Assembly: GCF_014486675.1 (NCBI RefSeq)
Contig: NZ_JACTAC010000001.1
Span: forward strand, 1-64,000
Source: Flavobacterium macrobrachii
Lineage (GTDB): Bacteria; Bacteroidota; Bacteroidia; Flavobacteriales; Flavobacteriaceae
Direction: 5' to 3'
DNA length: 64,000 bases
Part shown: positions 1,859-34,968 of the stretch, piece after piece
Position numbering within the stretch: the first letter of the stretch is position 1
Layout of the letters: every line of letters starts with the position of its first letter
Notes under the pieces: generated by a model
The model's input: only the letters and a program-made list of their open reading frames with translations
The model's database searches: none
Told to the model about the DNA's origin: nothing
Program-made: the position numbers and the translations under genes

Positions 1859-4630
1859 TTATCTAAATAAATTTTTATCAAAAACCATTCTGATGGCATC
1901 AGCATGACGTCTTCTATCTCTAGTGTGACTTCCTGCTGCTGGTGCTGCATATGCTTTTAACGAAGCTAATCTCCATTTTACTAAATCGAAATTCATTAAC
2001 ATGAAACTGTATGCTCCCATATTTTTTGGCTCTTCTTGTGCCCAAACAAAATCGTCAGCGTTTGGATAAGAAGCTATTATTTCTTTTAATTGCTCGGTTG
2101 GCAATGGAAATAATTGCTCAATACGAACCAAAGCTACATCATTTCTGCCTAAGTTTTCTCTTTCTGCTAAAATATCATAATAGAATTTTCCGGTAACGAA
2201 AACCAATGTTTTGACTTTTTTCTTGTCAACAGAATTATCATCTATTGTTTCTTGGAATTGACCATTTGCTAGTTCATCAACGGTTGATACACACAGTGGA
2301 TGACGTAATAAACTTTTTGGAGAAAATACTACCAATGGTTTACGGAATTTGGTTTTCATTTGTCTTCTCAACAAGTGGAAGAAATTGGCTGGCGTTGTAC
2401 AATCGGCTACATACATATTATGACGTGCGCAAAGTTGTAAATAACGTTCCATTCTTGCTGATGAATGTTCAGCACCTTGACCTTCGTATCCGTGAGGCAA
2501 TAAAAGAACAATTCCGTTTTGGTTGTTCCATTTGTCTTCACCACACGAAATGTATTGGTCAATCATGATTTGTGCACCGTTTGAGAAATCGCCAAATTGT
2601 GCTTCCCAAATGGTTAATGTGTTTGGATTGGCTAAGGCATAACCATAATCAAATCCTAAAACACCATATTCTGAAAGGAAGGAGTTGAATACATTGAACT
2701 TTCCTTTTTTATCTTTTAAAGTATTTAGTAAAACTACTTCTTCTTCGCTGTCTTCTACTTTTACAACGGCATGACGATGCGAAAAAGTTCCTCTCTCTAC
2801 GTCTTGTCCTGAAACACGAATGTCGTAACCTTCAGTTAAAAGTGAACCATAAGCTAATGTTTCGGCTGTTCCCCAATCCAAGGCATTATTATCGTACATT
2901 GTTTTTCTATCGGAAACAATTTTTGAAATTTTGCTGATGAATTTTTTATCCGATGGTAAAGTCGAAACGGTTTCGATGATTGCATCTAATTTTTTTCTGT
3001 CGAATTTTGTATCTACTTTTTTCAACATTTCGTCATCAGAAACTTGAACAAATCCTTTCCATTCGTCTTGTAAAAACGGAGTGATGATGGTTTTATCTTT
3101 CTTGCGTGATGCTTGTAGATTTTCATCAAGATTTGCTTTGTAATCGTTTTCAATTTTAGTGATATAAGCAGCATCAACAATTCCGTCTGTAATTAATTTT
3201 TCAGCATAAATATCTCTTGGATTTTTATGACGTGCAATGATTTTGTATAAAACGGGTTGTGTGAAACGAGGTTCGTCACCTTCGTTATGACCATATTTTC
3301 TATAACCTAATAAATCAATAAATACATCGCGTCCAAACTGCATACGGAAATCTAAAGCGAATAGCATAGCATGAACTACAGCTTCGGTATCATCAGCATT
3401 TACATGAAGTACTGGCGATAAAGTCACTTTAGCAATATCGGTACAATATGTTGATGAACGAGCATCAAGATAATTGGTTGTAAACCCAACTTGGTTGTTA
3501 ATTACAATATGAATTGTACCACCTGTTTTGTATCCGTCCAATTGCGCCATTTGGATAATTTCATACACAATTCCTTGTCCAGCAACGGCAGCATCACCGT
3601 GAACGGCAATGGGAAGTGCTTTTGAAAAATCTTCAGGGAAATATTTGTCTTGTTTTGCACGAGTAATTCCTTCAATTACAGCTCCAACAGTTTCCAAATG
3701 CGATGGATTTGGTGCTAAATTGATGTTGATTTTTTTACCCGATTTTGTTTTTCTTTCAGAAGTTAAACCTAAATGGTATTTAACATCGCCGTCAAAATAT
3801 TCTTTGTCGTAATCTTTTCCGTCAAATTCAGAGAAAATATCTTGAGTAGCTTTTCCAAAAATATTTGCTAACGTATTTAAACGACCACGATGTGCCATTC
3901 CCATAACAAAATGTTCCACACCTTTTTCGGCAGCAGCTTCAATCACAGCATCCAAAGCCGGAATTAAACTTTCGCCACCTTCAAGCGAGAAACGTTTTTG
4001 TCCCACATATTTCGTATGAAGGAAATTTTCAAAAGAAACGGCTTCGTTTAGTTTTCCTAAAATGTGTTTCTTTTGCTCTGCATTGAAATTAGGTTGATTG
4101 TCATTGGCATTAATTCTATCTTGAACCCAGTTTACAAAAATTGGGTTTTCCATATGCATGTATTCGATACCAATATGCTGGCAATACATGTTTTGAAGAT
4201 GAACTAGAATTTGACGTAAAGTGGTAGGTTGTTTTCCGATTACTTTTGCAGCATCAAAAACAGTATCTAAATCGGCAGAAGTTAAGCCGAAATTTTCAAT
4301 ATCTAAATTTGGAAAATAAGCTCTTCTTTCACGAACCGGATTGGTTTTGGTAAACAAATGTCCACGAGTTCTATAACCATCGATTAATCGAAGAACGTTA
4401 AATTCTTTTTGTAATTTGCCCGAAACCAAGCTGCAATCTTGACCATCAGTTTCAGTTTTTGAGATTTGTGCCAATACTTGCTCTTCGGAAAAAGTTTCCA
4501 TACCGAAGTCAAACCCTTGGAAAAAAGCTCTCCAACTTGGTTCTACGCTATCGGGATTTTGAGTATATTGTTCGTATAAATCGGCAAAAAATTGAGTGTG
4601 TGCTGCGTTTAAAAAGGAAAACCTATCCAT
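1859..4630 (-). CDS. sucA: 2-oxoglutarate dehydrogenase E1 component
   Basis: 923 residues, full length for the family. The N-terminus (MDRFSFLNAAHTQFFADLYE) is the conserved segment of OdhA-type E1. MAHRGRLNTLANIFGK is near residue 245. The ThDP and magnesium site starts near residue 341 with HGDAAVAGQGIVYE and ends in INNQVGFTT. A transketolase-like pyrimidine domain and an OGDH C-terminal domain (LPLPTEQLKEI...WAQEEPKNMGA) follow. It decarboxylates 2-oxoglutarate and hands succinyl to OdhB. It is the first gene of sucA-odhB, with a -7 box at 4671-4678. No truncation or missing key motif seen. Confidence 0.97.
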   Translation of the reverse strand: MDRFSFLNAAHTQFFADLYEQYTQNPDSVEPSWRAFFQGFDFGMETFSEEQVLAQISKTETDGQDCSLVSGKLQKEFNVLRLIDGYRTRGHLFTKTNPVRERRAYFPNLDIENFGLTSADLDTVFDAAKVIGKQPTTLRQILVHLQNMYCQHIGIEYMHMENPIFVNWVQDRINANDNQPNFNAEQKKHILGKLNEAVSFENFLHTKYVGQKRFSLEGGESLIPALDAVIEAAAEKGVEHFVMGMAHRGRLNTLANIFGKATQDIFSEFDGKDYDKEYFDGDVKYHLGLTSERKTKSGKKININLAPNPSHLETVGAVIEGITRAKQDKYFPEDFSKALPIAVHGDAAVAGQGIVYEIIQMAQLDGYKTGGTIHIVINNQVGFTTNYLDARSSTYCTDIAKVTLSPVLHVNADDTEAVVHAMLFALDFRMQFGRDVFIDLLGYRKYGHNEGDEPRFTQPVLYKIIARHKNPRDIYAEKLITDGIVDAAYITKIENDYKANLDENLQASRKKDKTIITPFLQDEWKGFVQVSDDEMLKKVDTKFDRKKLDAIIETVSTLPSDKKFISKISKIVSDRKTMYDNNALDWGTAETLAYGSLLTEGYDIRVSGQDVERGTFSHRHAVVKVEDSEEEVVLLNTLKDKKGKFNVFNSFLSEYGVLGFDYGYALANPNTLTIWEAQFGDFSNGAQIMIDQYISCGEDKWNNQNGIVLLLPHGYEGQGAEHSSARMERYLQLCARHNMYVADCTTPANFFHLLRRQMKTKFRKPLVVFSPKSLLRHPLCVSTVDELANGQFQETIDDNSVDKKKVKTLVFVTGKFYYDILAERENLGRNDVALVRIEQLFPLPTEQLKEIIASYPNADDFVWAQEEPKNMGAYSFMLMNFDLVKWRLASLKAYAAPAAGSHTRDRRRHADAIRMVFDKNLFR

Positions 4631-4670
4631 AATTTCTAGTTAATACACTGTTTGTTAAAAAATAGTTTTG

Positions 4671-4701
4671 CAAAAGTATACTATTTGTAATAATCTTTCA
4701 A
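4671..4701 (-). promoter_or_regulatory. sucA promoter
   Basis: The minus strand reads TACTTTTG at 4671-4678, a perfect TAnnTTTG box, with TTG at 4699-4701 separated by 20 nt. The box is 40 nt upstream of the sucA ATG. Confidence 0.65.
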
Positions 4702-4745
4702 TGATTTTAGTATATTTATAACGCTAATTAAATATATATTAAAGT

Positions 4746-5285
4746 ATGAAAATGAATAATGTTCAAAGTTTTTCAAAAGCACTATCGATAATTGCAGTTT
4801 TATTGTTTTTCAACTCTGGATTTTCACAAGAAGCAAGTCAGCAAAACCCCGAAAATAATTTTTGGAAAAATGTTCAATTTGGTGGTGGATTAGGTTTAGG
4901 TTTTGGAAGCGGTTATACCGATATTACCATTGCTCCAACGGCTATTTATAACTTTAATGAATATTTTTCACTTGGAACCGGAGTTCAATACAGTTATTTG
5001 AGACAAAAAGGTTTTTTCAAAAGCAATAACTATGGCGGAAGCATTATTGGACTTTTCAATCCGATTCCCGAAGCACAATTATCGGTAGAATTAGAACAAC
5101 TCCGAGTTAATCTTACGTATGAAAATATTGATGTAACCGAAAATTTTTGGAACACAGCACTATTTCTTGGCGCAGGTTATCGAATGGAAAACGTTACGAT
5201 TGGCGCACGTTACAATGTTTTATTCGACAAAGATAAAAATGTATATGGCGAAGCTTTTATGCCGTTTGTTAGGGTTTTCTTTTAA
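4746..5285 (+). CDS. Small outer-membrane beta-barrel-like protein
   Basis: 179 residues. A signal peptide (about residues 1-28, ending in FFNSGFSQE) precedes alternating hydrophobic/polar strands rich in Gly and aromatics: FGGGLGLGFGSGYTDI, YSLG-type turns, NTALFLGAGYRMENVTIGARYN. The last residues PFVRVFF end in Phe, as outer-membrane barrels commonly do. Probably an 8-strand-type barrel in the outer membrane; ligand or role unknown. Similar small proteins beside sucA are sometimes named alpha-ketoglutarate decarboxylase, apparently from location; nothing in this sequence supports an enzyme. It is divergent from sucA. Its stop overlaps the convergent hypothetical gene by 4 nt. An alternative ATG at 4752 is equally possible. 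Confidence 0.75.
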   Translation: MKMNNVQSFSKALSIIAVLLFFNSGFSQEASQQNPENNFWKNVQFGGGLGLGFGSGYTDITIAPTAIYNFNEYFSLGTGVQYSYLRQKGFFKSNNYGGSIIGLFNPIPEAQLSVELEQLRVNLTYENIDVTENFWNTALFLGAGYRMENVTIGARYNVLFDKDKNVYGEAFMPFVRVFF

Positions 5286-5740: not shown

Positions 5741-6715
5741 TTACACATTTCGGTTCATTAATTTTTCGCCAAACGCTTTTAAAATCATTTTTTTATCACT
5801 TGAAATATTCATTTTTTCTAAAGTTTCAAAGGCAGAAAAAGTAAAATCTTGTATGGCTTTTTGCGTGGCTTCGCTCGCGCCGGTTTGGTTGAAAATATTT
5901 TTTACTGAATTAATTTTATCAGTATTATCATTCGGTTGAATAGAAAACAAATGCAACAATTGTTCTTTTTCTTCTGGTTGTGCAAATTCAATCGCTTTTA
6001 GGTACAAATAGGTTTTTTTATTCTCAATAATATCGCCACCAACTTGTTTTCCAAAGGTTTCTGGATTGCCAAAAGCATCTAAGTAGTCGTCTTGCAATTG
6101 AAAAGCAATGCCTAAATTCAAACCAAAATCATAAATTAAATTTTTATTTTCTTCGGAAGTTTCAGCAACGATTGCACCCATTTTCATGGCAGCACCAACC
6201 AAAACTGCCGTTTTAAATTCAATCATTTTCAGATATTCGGGAATAGTAACATCAACACGCGTTTCAAAATCCACATCATATTGTTGTCCTTCGCAAACTT
6301 CCAAAGCTGTTTTGCTGAATAATTTGGCTAATTCCTGAAAAATTTTGGGTTCATAATCTTCAAAAAACTGATAGGCTAAAATCAACATTGCATCGCCAGA
6401 AAGTATTCCAGTATTGATATCCCATTTTTCGTGAACGGTTTCATTTCCTCTTCGCAACGGCGCATCATCCATAATGTCATCATGTATCAACGAAAAGTTA
6501 TGAAAAACTTCAACTGCAGTTGCTGCCGATAATGCTTTTGTATAATCTGCATCAAAAATTTCGGCTGCCATCAATGTTAAAACCGGGCGAAGTCTTTTTC
6601 CGCCAAGCGATAATATATATTGTATGGGCTCATAGAGATTTTTTGGTTCTTTATTTAAAGCAAGTAACGCAAAATGGGATGAGATTTTTTCTTGATAATT
6701 TGAAATGGACTGCAT
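5741..6715 (-). CDS. Polyprenyl (short-chain trans-prenyl diphosphate) synthetase
   Basis: 324 residues of the all-alpha isoprenyl diphosphate synthase fold. The first Asp-rich motif is HDDIMDDAPLRRG near residues 78-90 and the second is QLQDDYLDAFG near residue 209; both bind Mg-diphosphate. LGGKRLRPVL near residue 35 contributes the IPP-binding Lys/Arg. Phe at position -5 before the first motif suggests a short product such as farnesyl or geranylgeranyl diphosphate, but chain length cannot be fixed by eye. It adds isopentenyl units for quinone or undecaprenyl precursors in the cytoplasm. Start at MQSISNYQEK. Confidence 0.9.
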   Translation of the reverse strand: MQSISNYQEKISSHFALLALNKEPKNLYEPIQYILSLGGKRLRPVLTLMAAEIFDADYTKALSAATAVEVFHNFSLIHDDIMDDAPLRRGNETVHEKWDINTGILSGDAMLILAYQFFEDYEPKIFQELAKLFSKTALEVCEGQQYDVDFETRVDVTIPEYLKMIEFKTAVLVGAAMKMGAIVAETSEENKNLIYDFGLNLGIAFQLQDDYLDAFGNPETFGKQVGGDIIENKKTYLYLKAIEFAQPEEKEQLLHLFSIQPNDNTDKINSVKNIFNQTGASEATQKAIQDFTFSAFETLEKMNISSDKKMILKAFGEKLMNRNV

Positions 6716-6785
6716 GAAAAATATTTTTGGCTAATTTACTTCTTTCTTATCGTATTTTAAAATGTTAAAATTTTGTTAATATTAT

Positions 6786-6813
6786 GGAAACTTTTTTAGT
6801 GTTATTAGTTTCC
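6786..6813. promoter_or_regulatory. Putative TetR operator upstream of the YceI-like gene
   Basis: 28-bp site with perfect 7-bp inverted arms GGAAACT (6786-6792) and AGTTTCC (6807-6813) around a 14-nt core containing TTTTAGTGTTA. It matches the site at 8700-8727 in 25 of 28 positions and sits at the same 5-nt distance before its -7 box. Confidence 0.75.
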
Positions 6814-6817
6814 AGTT

Positions 6818-6825
6818 TACTTTTG
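6818..6825 (+). promoter_or_regulatory. -7 box (TACTTTTG) of the YceI-like/ndh operon
   Basis: TACTTTTG fits TAnnTTTG and starts 5 nt after the operator. It lies downstream of the ATG at 6784, so transcripts from here cannot use that ATG; the ATG at 6850 becomes the start. Confidence 0.7.
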
Positions 6826-6849
6826 TATCAAAATTTTAACAACCTTCCA

Positions 6850-7377
6850 ATGACTGCTACTTTTTTAAGTGTAAATGCTGACGAATCGGATCTTTTATTA
6901 AGAGCTCGACTTAGCGTGCTAACTTTTTTGGCTAATTCTATCGAAAAATTAGAAGCCACTTTGACAATAAATAATAGCGAAATGATTGATGCTTCATTAG
7001 ACCTTTTATTTGATGCTGATAAAGACACAGGAACGATAAAACATTTAAGCGAACCACAAAAAACCAACAGTTTTTTGGAAATTAATCAACAGCATTATAT
7101 TCGTTTTAAATCGATTTCTTTTGAAAAAGTAAACCCAGAAATCAACTTTTTGAAAGGAAATTTAACAATAAATGACATTACCAAAACCATTGAACTTGAC
7201 GTTAAAATTGTTTCAATGGAAATGCAAAGTGAATTGCCAAAAGTAGTGGTTGAATTTTCAGGAAAAATTAATCGTCATGATTTTGACCTTAACATGAATA
7301 CTGAAGTAGATTACAAAGGTTCTAACTCAAATCAGTTTATAGATTTGGTTGCCAACTTTGTTTATACAACAGCTTAA
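6850..7377 (+). CDS. YceI-like lipid-binding domain protein
   Basis: 175 residues from the ATG at 6850. The open frame extends back to 6784, but that extension is the operator and promoter, so I place the start downstream. The protein resembles a divergent YceI domain: LSVLTFLANSIEKLEATLTIN, then SFLEINQQHYIRFKSISFE, then the diagnostic strand GNLTINDITKTIELDVKI and the closing GKINRHDFDLNMN. YceI proteins form a barrel that carries isoprenoid or amphiphilic ligands. No signal peptide is visible, so it may be cytoplasmic. It is 19 nt upstream of the type II NADH dehydrogenase gene and presumably in one operon with it. A possible role with quinones is inference only. Confidence 0.7.
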   Translation: MTATFLSVNADESDLLLRARLSVLTFLANSIEKLEATLTINNSEMIDASLDLLFDADKDTGTIKHLSEPQKTNSFLEINQQHYIRFKSISFEKVNPEINFLKGNLTINDITKTIELDVKIVSMEMQSELPKVVVEFSGKINRHDFDLNMNTEVDYKGSNSNQFIDLVANFVYTTA

Positions 7378-7396
7378 CAATTAAATAAAAAAAACT

Positions 7397-8662
7397 ATGA
7401 AAAAGCAAATAGTCATTATCGGTGGTGGATTTGCCGGATTAAATTTTGCAAAAACAATTTCAAATAACTCCGATTTTGAAATTACACTAGTAGATAAAGT
7501 AAACTACAATTTTTTTCCTCCATTATTATATCAAGTTGCAACAGGTTTTTTAGAAATATCTTCAATAAGTTATCCGTTTAGAAAAATGCTTTCGGGTTCT
7601 AGAATTCGATTTTGGATGGGCGAATTACAAGAAATTGTTTCCAATGAAAACAAAATTATTCTCAATAACGGCGAGTTAAATTTTGACTATTTAGTTATTG
7701 CTACTGGAACTACAACCAATTATTTTGGGATGGAAAACGTGAAGAAAAACGCCATTCCAATGAAAACATTGGAAGATGCGTTGAACATGAGAAATAGTAT
7801 GTTGCAAAGAATAGAAGTCGCTTCAAATTCAAAAAATCTTCAGCAACAAGAAGAGTTGATGACGATTGTTGTTGCTGGCGGTGGACCAACTGGCGTGGAA
7901 CTTTCGGGAATGTTTGCCGAAATGAGCAAAACTATCATCCATAAAGAATATCCAGAACTTTCGCATGTAAAAAACGCCAAAATCTATTTGGTTGATGGCG
8001 GACCGGCTTTGCTTGCACCGATGAGTAAAAATTCTCAGGAAGAAACGTTGAAGCAAATTAAAAAATTAGGCGTTGAGGTACAACTTAACAAACAAGTGGT
8101 TGATTATGATGGTCAAACCGTTAGTTTTAAAGATGGTTCAACGATACGAACTCGAAATTTAATTTGGGCTGCAGGTGTAACGGCAATGCGTTTTAAAGGA
8201 TTGTCAGACGAAATGTTTGGAAGAAGTAATCGTTTATTAGTTGACGAGTTCAATAAAGTTGTCGGAACAGAAAATATTTATGCTATTGGCGATACCGCTT
8301 TTATGGAAACTGACAAAAAATTCCCGAATGGTCATCCGCAAGTAGCACAACCTGCAATGCAACAAGGAAAAAATCTAGCCAAAAACTTGATTTTAGCTTT
8401 AGCTAATAAACCTCAAAAACCATTTCAATACTATGATAAAGGTTCAATGGCAATTATTGGACGAAATAAAGCTGTTGTTGATTTGCCAAAACCAAAAGTT
8501 CATTTCAAAGGATTTCTTGCTTGGATGGCTTGGTTATTTGTCCACTTGATGTCTTTATCGATGCCACGAAATAAAGTTAATACACTATATCATTGGGCAT
8601 TAGCTTATTTTTCTAAGAATTCATCACTGCGAATGATTATTCGTCCAGAGAGAAAAAATTAA
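7397..8662 (+). CDS. ndh: Type II NADH:quinone oxidoreductase (NDH-2)
   Basis: 421 residues, two-dinucleotide-binding flavoprotein. The FAD site is IIGGGFAG (residues 8-14), the NAD(P)H site is VVAGGGPTGVELSG near residue 158, and the second FAD contact is IYAIGDTAFME near residue 294. The C-terminus has amphipathic, Trp-rich helices (FKGFLAWMAWLFVHLMSL) typical of membrane attachment in NDH-2. It oxidises NADH and reduces menaquinone without pumping protons, bypassing the nuo complex encoded at 24787-37789. It follows the YceI-like gene and shares its operator-controlled promoter, so its level probably responds to the TetR encoded at 8760. Confidence 0.92.
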   Translation: MKKQIVIIGGGFAGLNFAKTISNNSDFEITLVDKVNYNFFPPLLYQVATGFLEISSISYPFRKMLSGSRIRFWMGELQEIVSNENKIILNNGELNFDYLVIATGTTTNYFGMENVKKNAIPMKTLEDALNMRNSMLQRIEVASNSKNLQQQEELMTIVVAGGGPTGVELSGMFAEMSKTIIHKEYPELSHVKNAKIYLVDGGPALLAPMSKNSQEETLKQIKKLGVEVQLNKQVVDYDGQTVSFKDGSTIRTRNLIWAAGVTAMRFKGLSDEMFGRSNRLLVDEFNKVVGTENIYAIGDTAFMETDKKFPNGHPQVAQPAMQQGKNLAKNLILALANKPQKPFQYYDKGSMAIIGRNKAVVDLPKPKVHFKGFLAWMAWLFVHLMSLSMPRNKVNTLYHWALAYFSKNSSLRMIIRPERKN

Positions 8663-8699
8663 TCAAATTAATTAGATGTTAAATTTACGTTAATACTTT

Positions 8700-8727
8700 G
8701 GAAACTATTTTAGTGTTAAAAGTTTCC
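8700..8727. promoter_or_regulatory. Putative TetR operator upstream of tetR-efflux operon
   Basis: 28-bp site with perfect arms GGAAACT (8700-8706) and AGTTTCC (8721-8727) and the same core TTTTAGTGTTA as the site at 6786-6813. Its position directly before the tetR promoter fits autorepression. Confidence 0.8.
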
Positions 8728-8731
8728 ATTA

Positions 8732-8739
8732 TACATTTG
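8732..8739 (+). promoter_or_regulatory. -7 box (TACATTTG) of the efflux operon
   Basis: TACATTTG lies 5 nt after the operator and 21 nt before the tetR ATG. The operator occupies the -10 to -40 region, where a bound repressor would block polymerase. Confidence 0.7.
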
Positions 8740-8759: not shown

Positions 8760-9356
8760 ATGAAAGAGAAAATTATTAAAAAGGCAACGGATATGTTTTT
8801 GAAACTTGGTTTCAAGAGCGTTACTATGGATGATATTGCCAACGAAATGTGTATTTCTAAAAAAACGATTTATAAATATTTCAGCAACAAAGAAAAATTG
8901 ATTGAAGAAGGAACAGAAGTTGTTCACCAAAAAATTCATGATTTGATGGATGAAATTGTTGCAAAAAATTTTAACGCCATTGAAGAAAACTTTCAAATGC
9001 GTGAAATGTTCAAAAAAATGTTTCAATCTTTTGATCAATCTCCAGCATATCAACTAAAAAAACATTATCCTGAGATTTATGAGAAAATGATGTGTAATGA
9101 AATAGAAGATTGTAGTCAAATGTTTCGACAAAATATTGAAAAAGGAATTACACAAGGTTTGTACAGAAAAGAAACCGATGTTGAGGCAGCAGTAAAATTT
9201 TACTACACACTTATTTTTTCTATAAATGAAAACACCATGATGGAAAAAGATGCCTACGAACTTGAACTAAAAGCTCTTGAATATCATACAAGAGCTCTCG
9301 CAACCGAAAAAGGAATTAAAGAACTCGAAAATCAATTATTTAAATCAAATATATAA
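8760..9356 (+). CDS. TetR/AcrR-family transcriptional regulator
   Basis: 198 residues. The N-terminal helix-turn-helix spans about residues 4-50 (ATDMFLKLGFKSVTMDDIAN, then CISKKTIYKYFSNKEKLI), the classic TetR signature. The rest is an all-helical ligand and dimer domain without a recognisable subfamily. It is the first gene of an operon with TolC, membrane fusion and RND pump genes (6 nt to the TolC start). A 28-bp inverted repeat lies over its promoter and a near-copy lies before the YceI-like/ndh operon. It therefore probably represses itself, the pump and NDH-2, and is released by a pump substrate. The inducer is unknown. Confidence 0.92.
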   Translation: MKEKIIKKATDMFLKLGFKSVTMDDIANEMCISKKTIYKYFSNKEKLIEEGTEVVHQKIHDLMDEIVAKNFNAIEENFQMREMFKKMFQSFDQSPAYQLKKHYPEIYEKMMCNEIEDCSQMFRQNIEKGITQGLYRKETDVEAAVKFYYTLIFSINENTMMEKDAYELELKALEYHTRALATEKGIKELENQLFKSNI

Positions 9357-9362: not shown

Positions 9363-10703
9363 ATGAAAAACAAATTAATACTAACTTTTCTTTTGTTTGT
9401 AGGTATTTTACAAGCTCAAGAACAAAAGCAAAACTATTCATTTAGTTTACAGCAAGCTATTGAACATGCCATTCAAAACAATTATTCGGCAATTCGAGCT
9501 TCAAAAGACATCGATGCAGCTAAACAGAAAAAATGGGAAACAACTGCTGCAGGTTTACCACAAATTAATGCAAGTGTTGATTATCAAAACAATTTTGAAC
9601 TACAAAAATCAGTAGTTCCAGCGGAATTTTTTGGTGGAAATCCAGGTGAATTTACCGAAGTAGCTTTTGGAACAAGACACAACATGGTTGCCAATGGAAG
9701 ATTGAGCCAACTTATTTTTGATGGTTCATACATCGTAGCATTACAAGCTTCAAAAACCTATTTGAAGTATTATGAAAACGCTAAGCAAAAAAACAGTACC
9801 GAAATTCGCGAAATGGTCATCAATGCATATGGAAATGTACTTTTAGCAGAAGAAAGCATTGCCATTCTTGAAAAAAATAAAGCAACTTTATCTAAAACCC
9901 TTTTTGATACTGAAGAAACCTATAAAAATGGTTTAATCGAAGAAGAAAATGTTGAGCAACTTCAAATTACGTTGGCAACCATCAATAGTAACTTGAATAA
10001 CACGAAACGCTTGCTGGATGTAGCCACAAAAATGTTGAAATATGCTTTAGGAATTTCCTTAGATGCCGATTTAAAATTGACCGATAAACTAGATAATTTG
10101 TCTATGTCAAATATGGATATTGCTTTAAATTCAAATGGATTTACAGTAGCAGAAAATATTGATTTTCAAATGATTAAAAATCTTGAGGAGCAACGTTCAT
10201 TAGAATTAAAATTGCAAAAAAGTAAAGCGTTACCATCGTTAGCAGCTAATGTGAACTTTGGTTATAATGCTTTCAACGACCAGTTTGCTTTTTTTACTCA
10301 AAACCAAAAATGGTTGAATTATTCCAACTTAGGAGTAAGTTTAAATGTACCTATTTTTAGCAGTTTTGGTCGAAAAGCCAAAACACAACAAGCCAAAATT
10401 GCTTTAGACCAAGCTAAAATTCAGTTGACAGAAGTCGAGCAACAATTGCAACTTCAATATGAAAAAGCCAAAAGTGATTTTGAATTCAGTATTGAAGAAT
10501 ATGCAACAGCAAAAAGCAATTTGAATTTAGCTGAACGTATTGAAAAAAAGCAACAAATAAAATTCACTGAAGGTTTATCGTCCAGTTTTGATTTTAGCGA
10601 AGCCCAAAGACAATTGTATTCGGCTCAACAAAATTATTTACAATCAATGGTGAACATCATCAATAAAAAAGCCACTTTAGAAAAGATAATTAATAAAAAC
10701 TAA
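9363..10703 (+). CDS. TolC-family outer membrane efflux protein
   Basis: 446 residues. Signal peptide residues 1-19 (ending GILQAQ). The mature protein is an outer membrane factor: two repeats of long helices and short strands, starting YSFSLQQAIEHAIQNNYSAI and ending with the coiled region FEFSIEEYATAKSNLNLAER and SSSFDFSEAQRQLYSAQQNY. Three copies would form the outer-membrane channel and periplasmic tunnel of the tripartite pump encoded with the next two genes. It is 6 nt after tetR and 11 nt before the fusion protein gene. All parts expected of the family are present. Confidence 0.93.
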   Translation: MKNKLILTFLLFVGILQAQEQKQNYSFSLQQAIEHAIQNNYSAIRASKDIDAAKQKKWETTAAGLPQINASVDYQNNFELQKSVVPAEFFGGNPGEFTEVAFGTRHNMVANGRLSQLIFDGSYIVALQASKTYLKYYENAKQKNSTEIREMVINAYGNVLLAEESIAILEKNKATLSKTLFDTEETYKNGLIEEENVEQLQITLATINSNLNNTKRLLDVATKMLKYALGISLDADLKLTDKLDNLSMSNMDIALNSNGFTVAENIDFQMIKNLEEQRSLELKLQKSKALPSLAANVNFGYNAFNDQFAFFTQNQKWLNYSNLGVSLNVPIFSSFGRKAKTQQAKIALDQAKIQLTEVEQQLQLQYEKAKSDFEFSIEEYATAKSNLNLAERIEKKQQIKFTEGLSSSFDFSEAQRQLYSAQQNYLQSMVNIINKKATLEKIINKN

Positions 10704-10714: not shown

Positions 10715-11854
10715 ATGAAAAAAATAATATTACTTTCCGTTTTATCACTCATGCTTTTCGCTTGTGGAAAAGGTGAAAAAGAACAATCAATCGATAGTTT
10801 AATAAGTTCAAAAAATGTAAAAGCACTTCAGGAAAAAAAAGTTGCTTTGCAAGCTGAAATTGCTACCATTGAAGAAGCATTAGCTACTTTGGATGTAAAA
10901 GTAGATGAAGCTCTTGTTGGCGTTACAACTGTAAAAGATACCGTTTTCAATCACTATCTTGAAGTGCAAGGAAATGTTGATACCAAAGAAAATATAGTTA
11001 TTCAACCGGAATATAGCGGAACATTAACTTCGTTAACCGTTAAAGCTGGACAACGTGTTTCAAAAGGTCAAATCCTTGGGCGTGTTGACGATGCAGGAAT
11101 GAGCCAACAATTAGCAAGTGCCGAAAATCAATATCAATTGGCAAAAACAACTTACGAAAGACAAAAAAATCTTTGGGACAAAAAAATTGGTTCTGAAATT
11201 CAATATTTACAAGCACAAACCCAAATGGTTTCGGCTCAAAAAGCAGTTTCACAAATCAAAGCTCAATTGTCTAAAACCGTAATTCGTGCTCCATTTTCTG
11301 GAACAATTGATGAGGTTTTTGTAGAAAAAGGCGAAGTTGTAGCTCCAAGCGCACAAGGTTTGATGCGAATTGTGAATTTAGGAAATATGTATGTGTCAAC
11401 TACAATTCCTGAAAGCTATATAGGAAAACTGAAAATTGGTGACCAAGTAGATGTTTTTCTAACTTCTTTAGGTAAAACTTACAAAGGAAAAGTACGTCAA
11501 GTGGGAAGTTTTATCAATCCAAACAATAGAAGTTTTGGCATTGAAGTAAGTGTTCCAAATCCAGAAAATTTGTTACGTCCAAATCAAGTAGCAAAACTAA
11601 AAATCATTGACTATGTTAGTAAAGATGCTATTGTGGTTCCAACTGGAGTAATCCAAGAAGACGCTAATCATGATCAATTTGTTTTTGTAGTTGACGGAAG
11701 TAATGGTAAAACAGGAAAAGCTAAAAAAGTATTAGTAAAAACTGGAAAATCATCTGATAATGTAACTGAAATTTTAAGCGGATTATCGGTTAATGATGTA
11801 ATCGTAACGGATGGTGTTAATAACATTTCAGAAGGAATGAAATTGAATTTCTAA
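10715..11854 (+). CDS. RND efflux periplasmic adaptor (membrane fusion protein), lipoprotein
   Basis: 379 residues. The lipobox ends at C17 (MLFAC), so the protein is probably lipid-anchored facing the periplasm. Residues about 28-66 form a short coiled coil, followed by the split lipoyl/barrel-sandwich domain (SGTLTSLTVKAGQRVSKGQI ... VIRAPFSGTIDEVFVEKGEV). The alpha-hairpin lies between these, then the beta-barrel (TTIPESYIGKLKIGDQVDV) and a membrane-proximal domain. It joins the inner-membrane RND pump to the TolC channel. The 76-nt gap to the RND gene is filled with degenerate repeat words. Confidence 0.93.
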   Translation: MKKIILLSVLSLMLFACGKGEKEQSIDSLISSKNVKALQEKKVALQAEIATIEEALATLDVKVDEALVGVTTVKDTVFNHYLEVQGNVDTKENIVIQPEYSGTLTSLTVKAGQRVSKGQILGRVDDAGMSQQLASAENQYQLAKTTYERQKNLWDKKIGSEIQYLQAQTQMVSAQKAVSQIKAQLSKTVIRAPFSGTIDEVFVEKGEVVAPSAQGLMRIVNLGNMYVSTTIPESYIGKLKIGDQVDVFLTSLGKTYKGKVRQVGSFINPNNRSFGIEVSVPNPENLLRPNQVAKLKIIDYVSKDAIVVPTGVIQEDANHDQFVFVVDGSNGKTGKAKKVLVKTGKSSDNVTEILSGLSVNDVIVTDGVNNISEGMKLNF

Positions 11855-24786: not shown

Positions 24787-25152
24787 ATGCAATCAAATCA
24801 ATTAGACTATTTACCAATACTAATGCAAATGCTTTTAGCAGTTGGATTTGTTGTTGGAACCATTATTATATCAGGCTATTTAGGTCCAAAAAGAAGTTCA
24901 AAGAACAAAGATAAAAACTTTGAATGTGGTATCGAATCTGTTGGAAATGCTAGAATCCCGTTTTCAGTAAAATATTTTCTAGTAGCTATTCTTTTCGTGC
25001 TTTTTGATGTTGAGGTTATCTTTCTATATCCATGGGCAGTTAATTTTAAAGATTTAGGAATAGAAGGAATGATTAAAATGGTCATTTTTATGTCGCTTTT
25101 ATTGATTGGATTTTTCTATATCATTAAAAAGAAAGCGCTGGATTGGGAATAA
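24787..25152 (+). CDS. nuoA: NADH-quinone oxidoreductase subunit A
   Basis: 121 residues with three transmembrane helices: MLLAVGFVVGTIIISGYLG, then YFLVAILFVLFDVEVIFLYP, then MSLLLIGFFYIIKK. The conserved Cys loop is KNFECGIESVGNARI (Cys near residue 46), which lines the quinone cavity. It is a core membrane subunit of respiratory complex I and the first gene of the 14-gene nuo operon. Confidence 0.96.
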   Translation: MQSNQLDYLPILMQMLLAVGFVVGTIIISGYLGPKRSSKNKDKNFECGIESVGNARIPFSVKYFLVAILFVLFDVEVIFLYPWAVNFKDLGIEGMIKMVIFMSLLLIGFFYIIKKKALDWE

Positions 25153-25184
25153 ATTAATTACGAAATTTTAATTACACGTTATAA

Positions 25185-25730
25185 ATGAGTGATTCTAAAA
25201 TAAATATGGTTGCTCCACCAGAAGGAGTTGTTGGCGAAGGGTTTTTTGCTACAAAATTAAACGACGTGGTTGGAATGGCGCGTGCCAATTCACTTTGGCC
25301 ATTACCATTTGCAACATCATGTTGTGGTATTGAATTTATGGCAACAATGGCTTCACATTATGATTTAGCCCGTTTTGGTTCGGAAAGAGTAAGTTTTTCT
25401 CCACGCCAAGCCGATATGCTAATGGTGATGGGAACAATTTCCAAAAAAATGGCACCTATTTTACGTCAAGTTTACGAACAAATGTCAGAACCTCGTTGGG
25501 TAATTGCTGTTGGTGCTTGTGCAAGTTCAGGAGGAGTTTTTGATACTTATTCTGTACTGCAAGGAATTGATAAAGTAATCCCAGTCGATGTTTATGTTCC
25601 TGGTTGTCCTCCAAGACCTGAACAAATTGTTGACGGTGTTATGCAATTGCAAGAACTAGTTAGAAACGAATCCGTACGAAGAAGAAATTCTCCTGAATAC
25701 AAAGAATTGTTAGCATCATATAACTTATAA
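25185..25730 (+). CDS. nuoB: NADH-quinone oxidoreductase subunit B
   Basis: 181 residues. The ligands for the terminal 4Fe-4S cluster N2 are visible: the CC pair in FATSCCGIEFM, a Cys in AVGACASSGGVF, and one in YVPGCPPRPEQIVDG. N2 passes electrons to the quinone at the junction of the peripheral and membrane arms. It is in the nuo order after nuoA (32-nt gap) and 1 nt before nuoC. Confidence 0.97.
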   Translation: MSDSKINMVAPPEGVVGEGFFATKLNDVVGMARANSLWPLPFATSCCGIEFMATMASHYDLARFGSERVSFSPRQADMLMVMGTISKKMAPILRQVYEQMSEPRWVIAVGACASSGGVFDTYSVLQGIDKVIPVDVYVPGCPPRPEQIVDGVMQLQELVRNESVRRRNSPEYKELLASYNL

Positions 25731-25731
25731 T

Positions 25732-26256
25732 ATGGCATTAGAAACAATCACAATACAAGAAAGAATAATTGAAAAGTTTGGAAATTCAGCGTCCAATTTT
25801 GGAATGCAAAAAGATATTTTCTGCTTTGAGATTACTCCTGATAAAGCCTATGAAGTAATTCAGTTTTTAAAAACAGAATCCGAATTAAACTTCCATTTCC
25901 TAACTGATTTAGCCGGAATTCATTATCCAGATAATGATATTAATGAGCAATTCGCCGTTAGTTATCAATTGCACAATTGGATTGAAAATGTCAGAATTCG
26001 TGTCAAAACTTTTTTAAATGGCGAAAATCCTGAAATAAAATCTATAATTGATTTATTTCAATGTTCGAATTGGATGGAAAGAGAAGCTTGGGATTTTTAT
26101 GGAATAAATTTCATTGGACATCCACAGTTGAAAAGAATTTTGAATATGGATGAAATGATTTCACATCCAATGAGAAAAGAATTCCCAATGGAAGATAGCG
26201 GAAGAACTGACAAAGACGATAGATTCTTTGGAAGAACAAGTTTAATTAAAAATTAA
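25732..26256 (+). CDS. nuoC: NADH-quinone oxidoreductase subunit C (30 kDa)
   Basis: 174 residues. Contains the 30-kDa signature WMEREAWDFYGINFIGHPQL near residue 115-135 and ends after MRKEFPMEDSGR. NuoC is separate from NuoD here, not fused as in E. coli. It binds NuoD and NuoB in the connecting module. Its last codons (LIKN) run into AT-rich short-word repeats that fill the gap to nuoD. Confidence 0.95.
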   Translation: MALETITIQERIIEKFGNSASNFGMQKDIFCFEITPDKAYEVIQFLKTESELNFHFLTDLAGIHYPDNDINEQFAVSYQLHNWIENVRIRVKTFLNGENPEIKSIIDLFQCSNWMEREAWDFYGINFIGHPQLKRILNMDEMISHPMRKEFPMEDSGRTDKDDRFFGRTSLIKN

Positions 26257-26360
26257 AAATTAAGAATTACAAATAGAAGTAATTCTAGTTTAAAAACATA
26301 AAACTAATTGTCCAATTGCGGTTAAAATAATTTTTAATTCGTAATTCGTAATTCGTAATT
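26240..26360. repeat. Short-word repeats between nuoC and nuoD
   Basis: The gap begins with repeated AATTAAAA words and ends with three tandem TAATTCG heptamers (26335-26355). The two sides are partly complementary, so the transcript could fold across the gap. Confidence 0.65.
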
Positions 26361-26365
26361 AATAT

Positions 26366-27601
26366 ATGTCAGACTTATTGTTATCACCAGAGCATCGATA
26401 TGCTAAAGAAATAGAAAAGAAACGCAACGAAGATGGAAGCGAACTTTCGGTATTAAATTTAGGGCCAACGCATCCAGCTACTCATGGAATTTTCCAAAAC
26501 ATTCTATTAATGGATGGTGAGCGAATTCTTGATGCCGAACCAACAATCGGTTACATTCACCGCGCTTTTGAAAAAATTGCCGAAAATCGTCCTTTTTATC
26601 AAATCAATGTTTTGACAGACCGAATGAACTATTGTTCTTCGCCTATCAACAACATGGCTTGGTGGATGACTGTAGAAAAATTATTAAATATAGAAGTACC
26701 AAAACGCGCTCAATATTTAAGAGTGATAGTAATGGAATTGGCTCGTATTGCTGATCATTTAATTTGTAATTCAATCCTTGGAGTTGATACTGGTGCTTAT
26801 ACAGGTTTTCTTTATGTGTTTCAATTCAGAGAAAAAATATATGAAATCTACGAAGAAATTTGTGGAGCTCGATTAACAACCAACATGGGAAGAATTGGTG
26901 GTTTCGAAAGAGAATGGTCTGACGAAGCTTTCAAAAAATTAGACGTTTTCCTAACTGATTTCCCAATTGCTTGGAAAGAATTTGAAAATCTTTTTGAAAG
27001 AAACAGAATTTTTATTGATAGAACAGTAAATGTTGGTCCAATTTCGGCTGAAAGAGCTATGGATTATGGATTTACTGGTCCAAATCTTCGTGCGGCTGGT
27101 ATCGATTATGACGTTAGAAAAGCACAACCATATTCATCCTATGAAGATTTTGAGTTTGATGTTCCAGTAGGAAAATCAGGTGATACTTATGACAGATTTT
27201 GTGTCAGAAATGCTGAAGTTTGGGAAAGTTTGAAAATCATTCGACAAGCAGTAGACAAATTACCAAAAGGTTCAATTCATGCTGATGTTCCTGATTATTA
27301 TCTTCCACCAAAGGAAGATGTTTACAATAATATGGAAAGTTTAATTTATCATTTTAAAATTGTGATGGGCGAAGTTCCAGTTCCAGTAGCTGAAATTTAT
27401 CACGCAGTTGAAGGTGGAAATGGCGAATTAGGTTTCTACTTAATAACCGACGGAAGCAGAACACCTTATCGATTAAAAATGAGAAGACCTTGCTTTATCT
27501 ACTACCAAGCTTATACTGAAATGATTAAAGGCGGAATGTTATCCGATGCTATCGTGATTTTATCAAGTTTGAATGTAATAGCAGGAGAATTAGACGCATA
27601 A
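26366..27601 (+). CDS. nuoD: NADH-quinone oxidoreductase subunit D (49 kDa)
   Basis: 411 residues. Family hallmarks: LNLGPTHPATHGIFQNILLM near residue 30, the quinone-site His and Tyr region GYIHRAFEKIAE, ITDRMNYCS-like NVLTDRMNYCSS, and the C-terminal AGELDA. It forms the quinone-binding site with NuoB and carries no cluster of its own. It is separated by a 109-nt repeat-filled gap from nuoC, but remains within the operon. Confidence 0.97.
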   Translation: MSDLLLSPEHRYAKEIEKKRNEDGSELSVLNLGPTHPATHGIFQNILLMDGERILDAEPTIGYIHRAFEKIAENRPFYQINVLTDRMNYCSSPINNMAWWMTVEKLLNIEVPKRAQYLRVIVMELARIADHLICNSILGVDTGAYTGFLYVFQFREKIYEIYEEICGARLTTNMGRIGGFEREWSDEAFKKLDVFLTDFPIAWKEFENLFERNRIFIDRTVNVGPISAERAMDYGFTGPNLRAAGIDYDVRKAQPYSSYEDFEFDVPVGKSGDTYDRFCVRNAEVWESLKIIRQAVDKLPKGSIHADVPDYYLPPKEDVYNNMESLIYHFKIVMGEVPVPVAEIYHAVEGGNGELGFYLITDGSRTPYRLKMRRPCFIYYQAYTEMIKGGMLSDAIVILSSLNVIAGELDA

Positions 27602-27680
27602 GAATAAAGATTGCAGAATGCAGATTTTAGATTGCTGATTCAAATATCTAAAATCTAAAATTTAATATCTAAAATTAGAA
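27602..27680. repeat. Short-word repeats between nuoD and nuoE
   Basis: 79-nt gap composed of related words: TTGCAGAATGCAGATT, ATCTAAAATCTAAAATT, ATATCTAAAATTAG. No reading frame seen. Confidence 0.6.
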
Positions 27681-28211
27681 ATGGAAAGATCATATATAAA
27701 ACAAGAGATAAACATAACCGAATCGTTGATGAACCGCATCAATGAATTGATTAGTCACTATCCTGAAGGCAAACAAAAATCGGCTTTATTACCAGTTTTG
27801 CACGAAGTTCAAGATGCTCATGACAATTGGTTGAGTATTGAATTGCAAAATAAAGTAGCTGAAATTCTGGGAATTCAACGAATTGAAGTATATGAAGTGG
27901 TTACTTTTTATACCATGTTCAATCAGCGACCAATTGGAAAATTCATGTTCGAATTCTGTCAAACTTCTCCTTGTTGCCAAAACGGAGTAGAAGACTTGAT
28001 GGATTACACTTGTTCTAAATTAGGTGTAAAAGTTGGCGAACCAACAGCCGATGGACAATTTGAAGTTCGTGGCGTTGAGTGTCTTGGTGCTTGCGGTTAT
28101 GCGCCAATGATGCAATTGGGCGATTTCTACCAAGAGCATTTGACCAAAGAAAAAATCGATCAGTTAATTACTGATTGCAAAGACGGAAAAATCACTTTAC
28201 ACGATAAATAG
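27681..28211 (+). CDS. nuoE: NADH-quinone oxidoreductase subunit E (24 kDa)
   Basis: 176 residues, thioredoxin-like 2Fe-2S (N1a) protein. An N-terminal helical bundle (residues 1-80) precedes the cluster ligands: the first Cys pair in CQTSPCCQ and the second in ECLGACGYAPMM. EVVTFYTMFN is the usual family segment. It works with NuoF at the NADH-oxidising tip. Only 4 nt separate it from nuoF, so the two are probably translated together. Confidence 0.96.
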   Translation: MERSYIKQEINITESLMNRINELISHYPEGKQKSALLPVLHEVQDAHDNWLSIELQNKVAEILGIQRIEVYEVVTFYTMFNQRPIGKFMFEFCQTSPCCQNGVEDLMDYTCSKLGVKVGEPTADGQFEVRGVECLGACGYAPMMQLGDFYQEHLTKEKIDQLITDCKDGKITLHDK

Positions 28212-28215
28212 TATC

Positions 28216-29583
28216 ATGGGAAGAAAAATATTATTAGACAAAATCAACGTTCCAGGAATTAAAACTTATGAAGTATATCGTCGTGAAGGCGGATATGCAT
28301 CAGTTGAAAAAGCCCTGAAAAAAATGACACCCGATGAAGTGGTTGAAGAAGTAAAAACTTCGGGACTTCGTGGTCGTGGTGGCGCAGGATTTCCAGCTGG
28401 AATGAAATGGAGTTTTATCGATAAAAAATCGGGAAACCCAAGACATTTGGTTTGCAATGCTGACGAATCAGAACCTGGAACTTTCAAAGACAGATATTTA
28501 ATGGAATACATTCCGCATCTTTTAATAGAAGGAATGATTACATCAAGTTATGCTTTGGGCGCAAACCTTTCTTATATCTACATTCGTGGAGAATACATGT
28601 GGGTTTACAAAATTTTAGAAAGAGCCATCGCCGAAGCAAAAGCTGCTGGTTGGTTGGGTAAAAATATATTAGGTTCAGGCTATGATTTAGAACTTTTTGT
28701 TCAAATTGGTGGCGGAGCTTACATCTGCGGAGAAGAAACTGCTTTAATTGAAAGTCTTGAAGGAAATCGTGGAAATCCTCGTTTGAAACCACCATTTCCT
28801 GCTGTAAAAGGACTTTGGCAAAATCCAACCGTAGTAAATAACGTAGAAACTATTTCGGCTGTGCCTTGGATTATCAATAATTCGGGTGCCGATTATGCAG
28901 GAATTGGAATTGGTCGTTCTACTGGAACCAAATTAATTTCAGCTTCTGGAAACATCAAAAATCAAGGTGTTTTCGAAATCGAATTAGGCGTTTCTGTATA
29001 CGAATTCATGAATTCTGATGAATATTGTGGCGGAATGCAAACTGACAGACCTTTAAAAGCATTAGTTCCTGGAGGAAGTTCGGTGCCAATTTTACCAGCC
29101 AATTTAATTTACAAAACTGCCGCTGGTGAAGATAGATTAATGACTTATGAAAGTTTATCTGATGGCGGATTTGCAACAGGTTCAATGTTAGGTTCAGGCG
29201 GATTTATCGTTTATGATGATAGAGCATGTATCGTTCGAAATACATGGAATTTTTCACGTTTTTACCACCACGAAAGCTGCGGACAATGTACACCTTGCCG
29301 TGAAGGAACAGGTTGGTTAGAAAAAGTCTTATGGAGAATTGAAAACGGTCAAGGACGCGAAGAAGATATTGAGTTATTATGGAGTATTCAGTCCAAAATT
29401 GAAGGAAATACGATTTGTCCACTTGGTGACGCGGCTTCATGGCCAGTTGCTGCGGCAATTCGTCACTTCAGAGACGAGTTTGAATACCACATTCGTTTCC
29501 CAGAAAAAGTAAAAAATAGAGATCATTTTGTGAATGAGCCATTTGAAAAAGTGAAACATTTAGTAGCAAAACAAGAAGTTTAA
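28216..29583 (+). CDS. nuoF: NADH-quinone oxidoreductase subunit F (51 kDa)
   Basis: 455 residues. The FMN/NADH-binding glycine-rich segment is LRGRGGAGFPAGMKW near residue 52; the adjacent NADH/FMN contacts are CNADESEPGTFKDR and GGGAYICGEETALIESLEG. The N3 4Fe-4S ligands are ESCGQCTPCREG and the later Cys in NTICPLGD. It takes a hydride from NADH and starts electron transfer in complex I. Complete. Confidence 0.97.
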   Translation: MGRKILLDKINVPGIKTYEVYRREGGYASVEKALKKMTPDEVVEEVKTSGLRGRGGAGFPAGMKWSFIDKKSGNPRHLVCNADESEPGTFKDRYLMEYIPHLLIEGMITSSYALGANLSYIYIRGEYMWVYKILERAIAEAKAAGWLGKNILGSGYDLELFVQIGGGAYICGEETALIESLEGNRGNPRLKPPFPAVKGLWQNPTVVNNVETISAVPWIINNSGADYAGIGIGRSTGTKLISASGNIKNQGVFEIELGVSVYEFMNSDEYCGGMQTDRPLKALVPGGSSVPILPANLIYKTAAGEDRLMTYESLSDGGFATGSMLGSGGFIVYDDRACIVRNTWNFSRFYHHESCGQCTPCREGTGWLEKVLWRIENGQGREEDIELLWSIQSKIEGNTICPLGDAASWPVAAAIRHFRDEFEYHIRFPEKVKNRDHFVNEPFEKVKHLVAKQEV

Positions 29584-29594
29584 TAAGAACATAA

Positions 29595-29620
29595 ATACTC
29601 CGTAGGAGTTATATATTGGT
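29595..29620. repeat. Small hairpin word immediately before nuoG
   Basis: ACTCCGTAGGAGT gives a 5-bp stem (ACTCC/GGAGT) followed by TATATATTGGT and the nuoG ATG at 29621. From memory, similar TCCGTAGGA-containing words recur between Bacteroidota genes; I cannot confirm that here. Confidence 0.5.
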
Positions 29621-30646
29621 ATGAAAGTAACCATAGACGGTCAAGAAATAGAAGTAGAAGCTGGAACAACAATCCTGCAAGCTGCTCGTATGATTGGTGG
29701 AGAATCCGTTCCGCCAGCCATGTGTTATTATTCAAAACTAAAAGGAACCGGTGGAAAATGCCGTTGCTGTTTAGTTGACGTTACAAAAGGTAGCGAAGCC
29801 GATCCAAGACCAATGCCAAAATTAGTAGCATCATGTGTTACTGGTTGTCAAGACGGAATGGAAGTAGCCAGCAAATCTTCTGAAAGAGTAACCGAAGCTA
29901 GAAAAGCAGTAACCGAATTCCTTTTGATAAATCACCCATTAGATTGTCCAGTTTGTGATCAAGCAGGAGAATGTGATTTGCAAAATTTATCATTCGAACA
30001 CGGAAAATCAGAAACTCGCTTCATCGAAGAAAAAAGAACTTTTGAGCCTGAAGATATTGGTCCATACATTCAATTACACATGAACCGTTGCATCGTTTGT
30101 CAACGTTGTGTAGAAGTTGCCGATCAATTAACTGATGGTAGAGTTCATGGAGTTTTAAATCGTGGTGATCATTCACAAATTTCAACTTGTGTTTCAGCAG
30201 CTATTGACAATGAATTCTCTGGAAACATGATTGACGTTTGCCCGGTTGGAGCGTTAACTGATAAAACATTCCGTTTCAAATCGAGAGTTTGGTTCAACAA
30301 ACCTTTCAATGCGCACAGAGAATGTACCACGCCAGGATGTTGCGGAAAAACAACACTTTGGATGTTTGGAAACGAAATTCAAAGAGTTACAGCAAGAAAA
30401 GACGAATACCACGAAGTAGAAGATTTCATCTGTAACACGTGTCGTTTCGACAAAAAAGAAGTTTCGGATTGGGTTATTGAAGGTCCAAGAAAATTTGAAA
30501 AAGACTCTGTAATAAACCAAAACAACTATACTCGCAAAATGAATAAAGTTGTGATTGAAACCGAAAAAGGAATTCTTGAAGGAAGAGAAATCGATAGAAA
30601 AAAAATCAGTATGGTTGAAATTCCATTAGATAATAAAAAATCGTAA
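29621..30646 (+). CDS. nuoG: NADH-quinone oxidoreductase subunit G, short form
   Basis: 341 residues against roughly 800-900 in E. coli-type NuoG. Present: the N-terminal 2Fe-2S ferredoxin domain (MCYYSKLKGTGGKCRCC), the His/Cys 4Fe-4S motif (HPLDCPVCDQAGECDL), the next cluster (CIVCQRCVE ... DVCPVGAL), and a Cys-rich start of the molybdopterin-type domain (CTTPGCCG ... FICNTCRFDKKE). The large molybdopterin oxidoreductase-like domain is missing. The electron path to NuoI can still be complete. The end is a clean stop 3 nt before nuoH, so this looks like an evolved short form rather than a broken gene. Confidence 0.93.
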   Translation: MKVTIDGQEIEVEAGTTILQAARMIGGESVPPAMCYYSKLKGTGGKCRCCLVDVTKGSEADPRPMPKLVASCVTGCQDGMEVASKSSERVTEARKAVTEFLLINHPLDCPVCDQAGECDLQNLSFEHGKSETRFIEEKRTFEPEDIGPYIQLHMNRCIVCQRCVEVADQLTDGRVHGVLNRGDHSQISTCVSAAIDNEFSGNMIDVCPVGALTDKTFRFKSRVWFNKPFNAHRECTTPGCCGKTTLWMFGNEIQRVTARKDEYHEVEDFICNTCRFDKKEVSDWVIEGPRKFEKDSVINQNNYTRKMNKVVIETEKGILEGREIDRKKISMVEIPLDNKKS

Positions 30647-30649
30647 GAA

Positions 30650-31681: not shown

Positions 31682-31687
31682 AAAAGT

Positions 31688-33074: not shown

Positions 33075-33080
33075 TTGAAA

Positions 33081-34958: not shown

Positions 34959-34968
34959 TTTTCATATA

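Follow-up and report, generated by a model that had tools for sequence, protein, structure and literature searches.

A putative TetR operator shared by an RND efflux operon and a YceI lipocalin-NADH dehydrogenase unit in Flavobacterium macrobrachii

Repressors of the TetR family that control a neighboring RND efflux pump are a known kind of system. Within the Bacteroidota, deletion of BmeR5 in Bacteroides fragilis raises expression of its pump (PMC4790292, in excerpt), and in F. johnsoniae a tetR-tolC-adaptor-permease operon with tolC mutations has been described (PMC10197871, in excerpt), possibly at the locus treated here. The regulators QacR and CprB bind DNA as a dimer of dimers (PMC4150764, in excerpt). 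Isoprenoids such as ubiquinone-8 or octaprenyl compounds are ligands of YceI proteins, one of which, BcnA, captures hydrophobic antibiotics (excerpts of PMC9113575 and PMC5350466).

Here, we describe a locus within a window of 64,000 nucleotides (the whole stretch of F. macrobrachii DNA that was analyzed, contig NZ_JACTAC010000001.1). What is new relative to the known kind of system is a second branch, comprising a YceI lipocalin and a type II NADH dehydrogenase (NDH-2), and an operator that is unusually widespread. Sequence comparison strongly suggests that the TetR encoded in the window controls both the pump operon and the yceI-ndh unit, a reading to which we give a probability of about 0.83. 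Among the titles and starts of abstracts listed in searches of the open-access literature, none mentions the operator or the regulon, which does not prove that they are unpublished.

The locus and its two predicted operators

A sequence-only reading of the window had named YceI, NDH-2, TetR, TolC, an adaptor, and an RND permease, and this gene content holds (Table 1). The divergent polyprenyl synthetase gene (PPS) adjoins tetR in most of the flavobacterial loci read.

Table 1. Features of the F. macrobrachii locus, in window coordinates.
Feature	Position	Strand	Basis
Polyprenyl synthetase (PPS), divergent	5741..6715	-	PF00348 265 bits; synteny
Candidate -7 box of PPS promoter, TAAATTAG, 47 nt from O1	6731..6738	-	read from sequence
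AT-rich conserved stretch upstream of O1	6762..6785	+	direct repeat; information profile
Operator O1 (predicted), GGAAACTTTTTTAGTGTTATTAGTTTCC, before yceI-ndh, over -33 region (TTTA 6795-6798)	6786..6813	+	repeat, genome match, information profile
-7 box TACTTTTG of yceI-ndh promoter; transcription start inferred ~6830	6818..6825	+	
yceI-like, 175 aa	6850..7377	+	PF04264 49 bits, cut-off 23.7
ndh, type II NADH:quinone oxidoreductase (NDH-2), 421 aa	7397..8662	+	PF07992 and NDH2_C
AT-rich conserved stretch upstream of O2	8676..8699	+	direct repeat
Operator O2 (predicted), GGAAACTATTTTAGTGTTAAAAGTTTCC, before tetR-tolC-MFP-RND, over -33 region (TTTA 8709-8712)	8700..8727	+	repeat, genome match
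-7 box TACATTTG of tetR promoter; transcription start inferred ~8744	8732..8739	+	
tetR, 198 aa	8760..9356	+	PF00440 46.4 bits, cut-off 24
TolC-type outer-membrane channel	9363..10703	+	PF02321
RND periplasmic adaptor (MFP)	10715..11854	+	TIGR01730 214.7 bits, cut-off 94.9
RND permease, 1156 aa	11931..15401	+	PF00873 534 bits

The YceI domain match spans positions 20 to 135 of the 150 in the PF04264 profile, and the nearest solved structure is TT1927b (1wub; E = 1.2e-7); a structure model built from three sequences was too poor for use (pLDDT 45). A start at 6850 fits better than the open reading frame start at 6784, because the latter would place the operator and promoter within the gene. Read from 6850, the protein opens directly with the domain, as do the other YceI N termini listed (judged by eye), and a relative whose YceI is 94% identical (L033) has a stop codon where the window has the ATG of 6784. 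The ndh product best matches a solved non-electrogenic NADH:ubiquinone reductase (9mqy; E = 2.4e-63), and NADH:quinone activity without proton pumping is predicted for it from its family. Complex I is encoded in the same window (nuoH, 30686-31654, PF00146), and further nuo-like open reading frames at 24787-37789 were recognized by eye as a complex I cluster. The genome also holds a second NDH-2 and two further YceI genes; an NqrB match indicative of Na-NQR was looked for in the genome and none was found. With complex I and a second NDH-2 present, the window ndh is an extra NADH dehydrogenase and not the sole one.

The window TetR has the N-terminal helix-turn-helix domain and all-helical fold of the TetR/AcrR family, with the recognition helix SKKTIY at residues 33 to 38 (8856-8873). 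Its structure model is good (pLDDT 89.3), with 3f0c as the best fold match (Z = 17.8, rmsd 2.2, 179 residues aligned). NCBIfam models gave it no name, all being far below their cut-offs: AcrR reached 28.2 of 271 bits and MtrR 36.3 of 280, and the fatty-acid regulator FadR tied with MtrR at 36.3 bits, likewise far below cut-off. As in other local TetR repressors of RND pumps, the gene adjoins a tripartite pump operon, and its own promoter bears a palindromic site.

That site is one of two. The sequence-only reading had reported two 28-bp sites identical at 25 of 28 positions, which is borne out at the same coordinates, and the 7-bp arms GGAAACT/AGTTTCC are indeed identical in O1 and O2. The likeness is longer than first noted, with 83% identity over 64 nt (6762-6825 versus 8676-8739), and this direct repeat takes in both the -7 box and an AT-rich upstream stretch. 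A TAnnTTTG box does follow each site, but the spacing of "exactly 5 nt" does not stand, as 4 nt lie between and the box begins at the fifth base. The AT-rich stretch reads TGTTAAA...GTTAATA in front of both sites, and is possibly an UP-like element or the site of another factor.

With up to three mismatches, the O1/O2 consensus had no match in 100 dinucleotide shuffles of the window. The pattern was built from O1 and O2 themselves, and uniqueness in the genome is therefore the stronger test: across 3.45 Mb, the same consensus and tolerance match O1 and O2 only. A third regulon member sought in the genome by arm match was not found, since one mismatch in the arms alone gave a single extra match, within a 1009-codon open frame. 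At up to two mismatches, there were 12 arm matches in all versus 19 for a reversed-pattern control. The genome scan that had been proposed as a check thus leaves O1 and O2 as the only good sites in the genome.

Conservation of the operator and anatomy of its promoters

Loci were gathered in two sets. The first consists of the best 80 of 165 loci retrieved solely by similarity to the TetR protein (L033-L112), irrespective of the site. Among these best 80 of 165, the operator GGAAACT-N14-AGTTTCC, with at most one arm mismatch, lies upstream of tetR in 79/80 (78/79 without duplicates); in the 80th (L051), the sequence begins 21 nt before tetR. Two loci, L033 and L034, have an additional copy before yceI-ndh. 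In a survey of the genus, the 28-mer (up to three mismatches) occurs in 123/150 genomes, the window's included, versus 2/150 for the reversed-pattern control, and the second set, fetched for having the site, comprises 109 of the 123 matching genomes, read besides the window's own. Combined, the sets give 190 loci (183 unique), many of which were selected for the site; in the unique loci, 240 sites fall in the PPS-tetR interval versus none in 1,793,628 other bases. In the 27 genomes that the 28-mer did not match, a search with the TetR protein found it in 24; of these, 22 have the site with at most one mismatch and a spacer of 13 to 14 nt. As for the remaining two, L306 is truncated and L317, with a TetR 30% identical to that of the window, is without the site.

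To gauge depth, exact arms were searched in 395 genomes of the phylum, with 85 matches. By our own tally of the phylum table, these occur in 23/24 genomes of the genus, 15/17 in the rest of the family, 25/49 in the rest of the class, and 22/297 in the rest of the phylum; in the other family of the same order, 0/8 genomes matched. The reversed-pattern control gave 2/49 in the rest of the class and 8/297 in the rest of the phylum. On counts alone, the enrichment beyond the class is modest, and a neighboring tetR is the better evidence there. We read 52 of the 85 loci, namely 30 from within the class (24 class, 4 family, 2 genus) and all 22 from outside it. In the former group, tetR adjoins the site in 30/30, with TolC visible in 29; in the latter, it does so in 20/22. 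Only 9 of these 22 show TolC or MFP in the stretch retrieved, and L276 and L284 have the site with no tetR nearby. Outside the family, this amounts to tetR beside the site in 44/46 loci read, and the TetRs there are only 21 to 40% identical to that of the window in BLAST alignments. The helix SKKT[ILVM]Y is found in 189/189, 30/30, and 20/20 TetRs of the operator-bearing sets, a frequency counted among these sets. On this comparative evidence, many families of the phylum carry the operator before a gene for a related repressor.

The -7 box lies at -12 to -5 (PMC9723704, in excerpt). With the transcription start inferred from that position, the operator covers about -44 to -17. A TAnnTTTG-like box at offset 4 to 6 follows 214/240 sites versus 19/477 control stretches; counting at least five of six letters, the offset is 4, 5, or 6 for 163, 39, and 12 of the 240, respectively, leaving 25 sites without a box and 1 with a box at offset 2. 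The operator lies over the -33 region, which points most naturally to autorepression.

The same overlap could be taken to mean that the palindrome is a promoter feature or the site of another factor, with TetR binding elsewhere, and part of the conservation of the site is indeed promoter conservation. However, the arm positions carry 1.9 to 2.0 bits, more than most other promoter positions, and tetR adjoins the site in 50/52 loci read from the phylum sample. Further evidence comes from second sites, chosen by position alone as lying 40 to 60 nt downstream of another site (n = 27). They lie at a distance of 45 to 56 nt from it, 26 in inverted and one (L009) in direct orientation. Such inverted copies cannot be a -33 element, yet they keep the arms and the core. 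We regard a promoter feature or the site of another factor as very improbable.

The operator core is itself off-center (TTT-N-GTNTT). An explanation of this asymmetry as a -33 element only was rejected, as GTGTT is retained in 25/26 inverted second sites (L012 being the exception); the core is therefore probably read by the repressor. Third sites proximal to tetR in the same clade keep the arms, and most of them are without GTGTT. With half-sites 21 bp apart in a 28-bp site and the off-center GTGTT as a third conserved patch, binding by two TetR dimers would fit, and we infer this arrangement.

An alternative to drug export is that the regulon balances isoprenoids or membrane lipids, with a prenyl or acyl ligand and with the divergent PPS affected too. 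PPS is the usual divergent neighbor, NDH-2 enzymes as a family use quinones, and the weak family matches of TetR include FadR. YceI proteins bind polyprenoids and quinones (excerpts of PMC9113575 and PMC5350466). However, the FadR match is no better than that to MtrR, and the likely PPS promoter lies at a median of 64 nt from the operator, with a PPS-type box in 152/176 loci (counted without a chance control); no more than 39 of those 152 have the -33 element expected with it (CAAA on the + strand). Since the box in the window is as distant as it is from O1 (Table 1), the repressor probably does not cover PPS directly, and promoter position does not support PPS as a direct TetR target. We consider a lipid-balance regulon unlikely.

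The slot between PPS and tetR

In 115 of the 183 unique loci, the PPS-tetR gap is shorter than 260 nt with nothing inserted, the commonest arrangement. YceI lies between the two in 55, accompanied by NDH-2 in 3 of these; a further 9 contain something else or a long gap, and in 4 no PPS is visible. A single operator (at most one mismatch) is shared by yceI and tetR in 18/55 YceI loci, and in the loci read, an operator precedes the cargo genes of the PPS-tetR interval. Slot content was read locus by locus in 14 loci, with gene names assigned by eye. SDR genes occupy the slot in L188-L191 and L142; L114 has an MBL-fold hydrolase gene flanked by operators on both sides, and L183 has a small open reading frame; in L113 (G045, 3194-4840), yceI is interrupted by genes for a Crp-like regulator and an SMR-type small transporter (by eye). 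As the slot also accepts SDR and MBL-fold genes, its theme is wider than respiration.

NDH-2 of the window type (at least 71% identical, E at most 1e-190) was found in 9 of 398 Flavobacterium genomes, the window's included, and in 9/9 it lies in the PPS-tetR slot with YceI and operators. The order is yceI-ndh in six and ndh-yceI in three, with an operator (at most one mismatch) before each unit, some with a 13-nt spacer; in the ndh-yceI order, one operator is common to yceI and tetR. Less similar NDH-2 loci from a 101-genome search had no site, YceI, or TetR within their 1.5-kb flanks in 28/28 cases read. The nine proteins group as a single clade (SH-aLRT 100; quick search, distant outgroup), which is partly expected from their selection for likeness to the window protein. 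On a PPS tree (FastTree; 145 sequences, with short or interrupted ones and those below 68% identity left out), the YceI-NDH-2 pair requires 5 changes and the presence of YceI 13, and the tree does not separate gain from loss. Judged by these distributions, NDH-2 is a lineage-specific addition and YceI the usual partner.

Cargo and pump both vary. Window YceI (6850-7377) is 40% identical to that of L034 (6068-6589), though NDH-2 and TetR are 92% identical, and fast divergence or replacement may account for this. In L269, the yceI match is split between two frames, and O2 is separated from tetR by about 0.8 kb of unread sequence. Pump proteins behind a like TetR and operator are often 22 to 31% identical to the window's (e.g., L033 and L265; TetR 93%). 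In L033 (8349-13888), the pump genes are 24 to 28% identical to the window's at a TetR identity of 93%; here the pump was exchanged, and the regulator and operators were kept. TetRs 41 to 42% identical precede TolCs 69 to 71% identical in L088, L092, L097-L099, and L103. Regulator and operator are thus often more constant than the pump; with pumps exchanged so often behind one kind of TetR and operator, the operator is not tied to a single substrate.

The origin of O1 is relevant to its function. Close relatives without cargo have a single site there, of nearly the O2 sequence, which makes duplication its likely origin and agrees with the placement of O1 and O2 in a direct repeat. From this it could follow that TetR controls the pump operon alone, O1 being a remnant of a tetR-promoter duplication at the insertion of yceI-ndh and no longer of consequence. 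Yet the O1 arms are intact despite 17% drift in the 64-nt repeat, the six loci with the window's order and the three with the opposite order all keep operators before their units, and 26 YceI loci have a further, inverted operator downstream of the promoter. An inconsequential O1 therefore seems improbable, and control of both units by TetR remains the preferred reading.

Probable shared control and comparison with known systems

Comparison across the loci establishes the operator, its placement on the promoters, its deep co-conservation with tetR, and the copies before cargo units. A two-operon regulon linking drug or lipid export to a non-pumping NADH dehydrogenase had been proposed from the sequence. 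Its core, the action of a single TetR on both promoters, has strong support from operator-tetR co-conservation and from the operators before cargo genes; the link to respiration exists in gene content but is confined to one lineage group. We infer that TetR is the binder and that it represses rather than activates. As a local, autoregulating repressor, TetR would bind O2 and O1 and block the sigma-A type promoters of tetR-tolC-MFP-RND and yceI-ndh by covering the -33 region, and both promoters would be freed when it takes up a toxic, probably hydrophobic, compound. That the inducer is redox-active or quinone-like, as first suggested, is a guess.

NDH-2 enzymes use quinones and have an active site that faces the cytosol. 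We speculate that the apparently cytosolic YceI lipocalin would hold an isoprenoid, be it menaquinone or a lipophilic toxin, and that NDH-2 would keep menaquinone reduced; the two might form a reduced-quinone shield, or YceI might serve to sequester lipophilic toxins. Pump, YceI binder, and quinone reductase might then constitute one detoxification response, a tentative proposal that we regard as rather doubtful. A broader synthesis would see an ancient pair of SKKT-type TetR and operator, patchy across the phylum, and a Flavobacterium slot that captures detoxification genes together with an operator copy, the window's YceI and slot-specific NDH-2 acting as an FSP1-like quinone shield co-induced with the pump; taken as a whole, this is speculative and probably wrong in some part. 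An operator conserved from Flavobacterium to distant families makes the control of such pumps in Bacteroidota readable from sequence, each gene behind a copy of the site becomes a testable member of the same response, and the pairing of lipocalin and NDH-2 under pump control offers a lead to the role of YceI proteins without a signal peptide.

Among described systems, BmeR5-BmeABC5 of B. fragilis, from the same phylum, likewise pairs a TetR repressor with an adjoining tripartite RND pump. In contrast, no YceI or NDH-2 is mentioned in the excerpted account, from which the likeness is drawn (PMC4790292). With AcrR, MtrR, and SmeT, the window TetR shares its fold (SmeT and MtrR are among the matches), its gene neighborhood, and an operator on the promoter. 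It differs from AcrR and MtrR in falling far below their family cut-offs, in that tetR heads the pump operon, and in the addition of a lipocalin and a quinone reductase. QacR also has a 28-bp operator with a non-palindromic core (PMC4150764, in excerpt), and its DNA complex (1jt0) is among the fold matches of the window TetR (Z = 14.9, rmsd 3.8, 175 residues aligned, 21% identity), for which the same stoichiometry is presumed.

A functional parallel to the second branch is BcnA-LcoA-PsrA of Burkholderia cenocepacia, a system of peroxyl-radical detoxification in which a YceI lipocalin has a proposed quinone-reducing partner, as here. From the excerpted account, it includes a cytoplasmic reductase, which may be compared with the SDR genes in some slots; in contrast, BcnA is secreted and its partner is a cytochrome b561, whereas the window YceI has no evident signal peptide (by eye) and is partnered by NDH-2 (PMC9113575). 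Among the open reading frames read in 14 loci, no cytochrome b561 partner was recognized by eye. FSP1 is an animal NADH:quinone reductase that acts against lipid peroxidation. It is a distant sequence relative of the window NDH-2 (9ift; E = 1.9e-12), but the window protein matches NDH-2 enzymes such as 9mqy far better.
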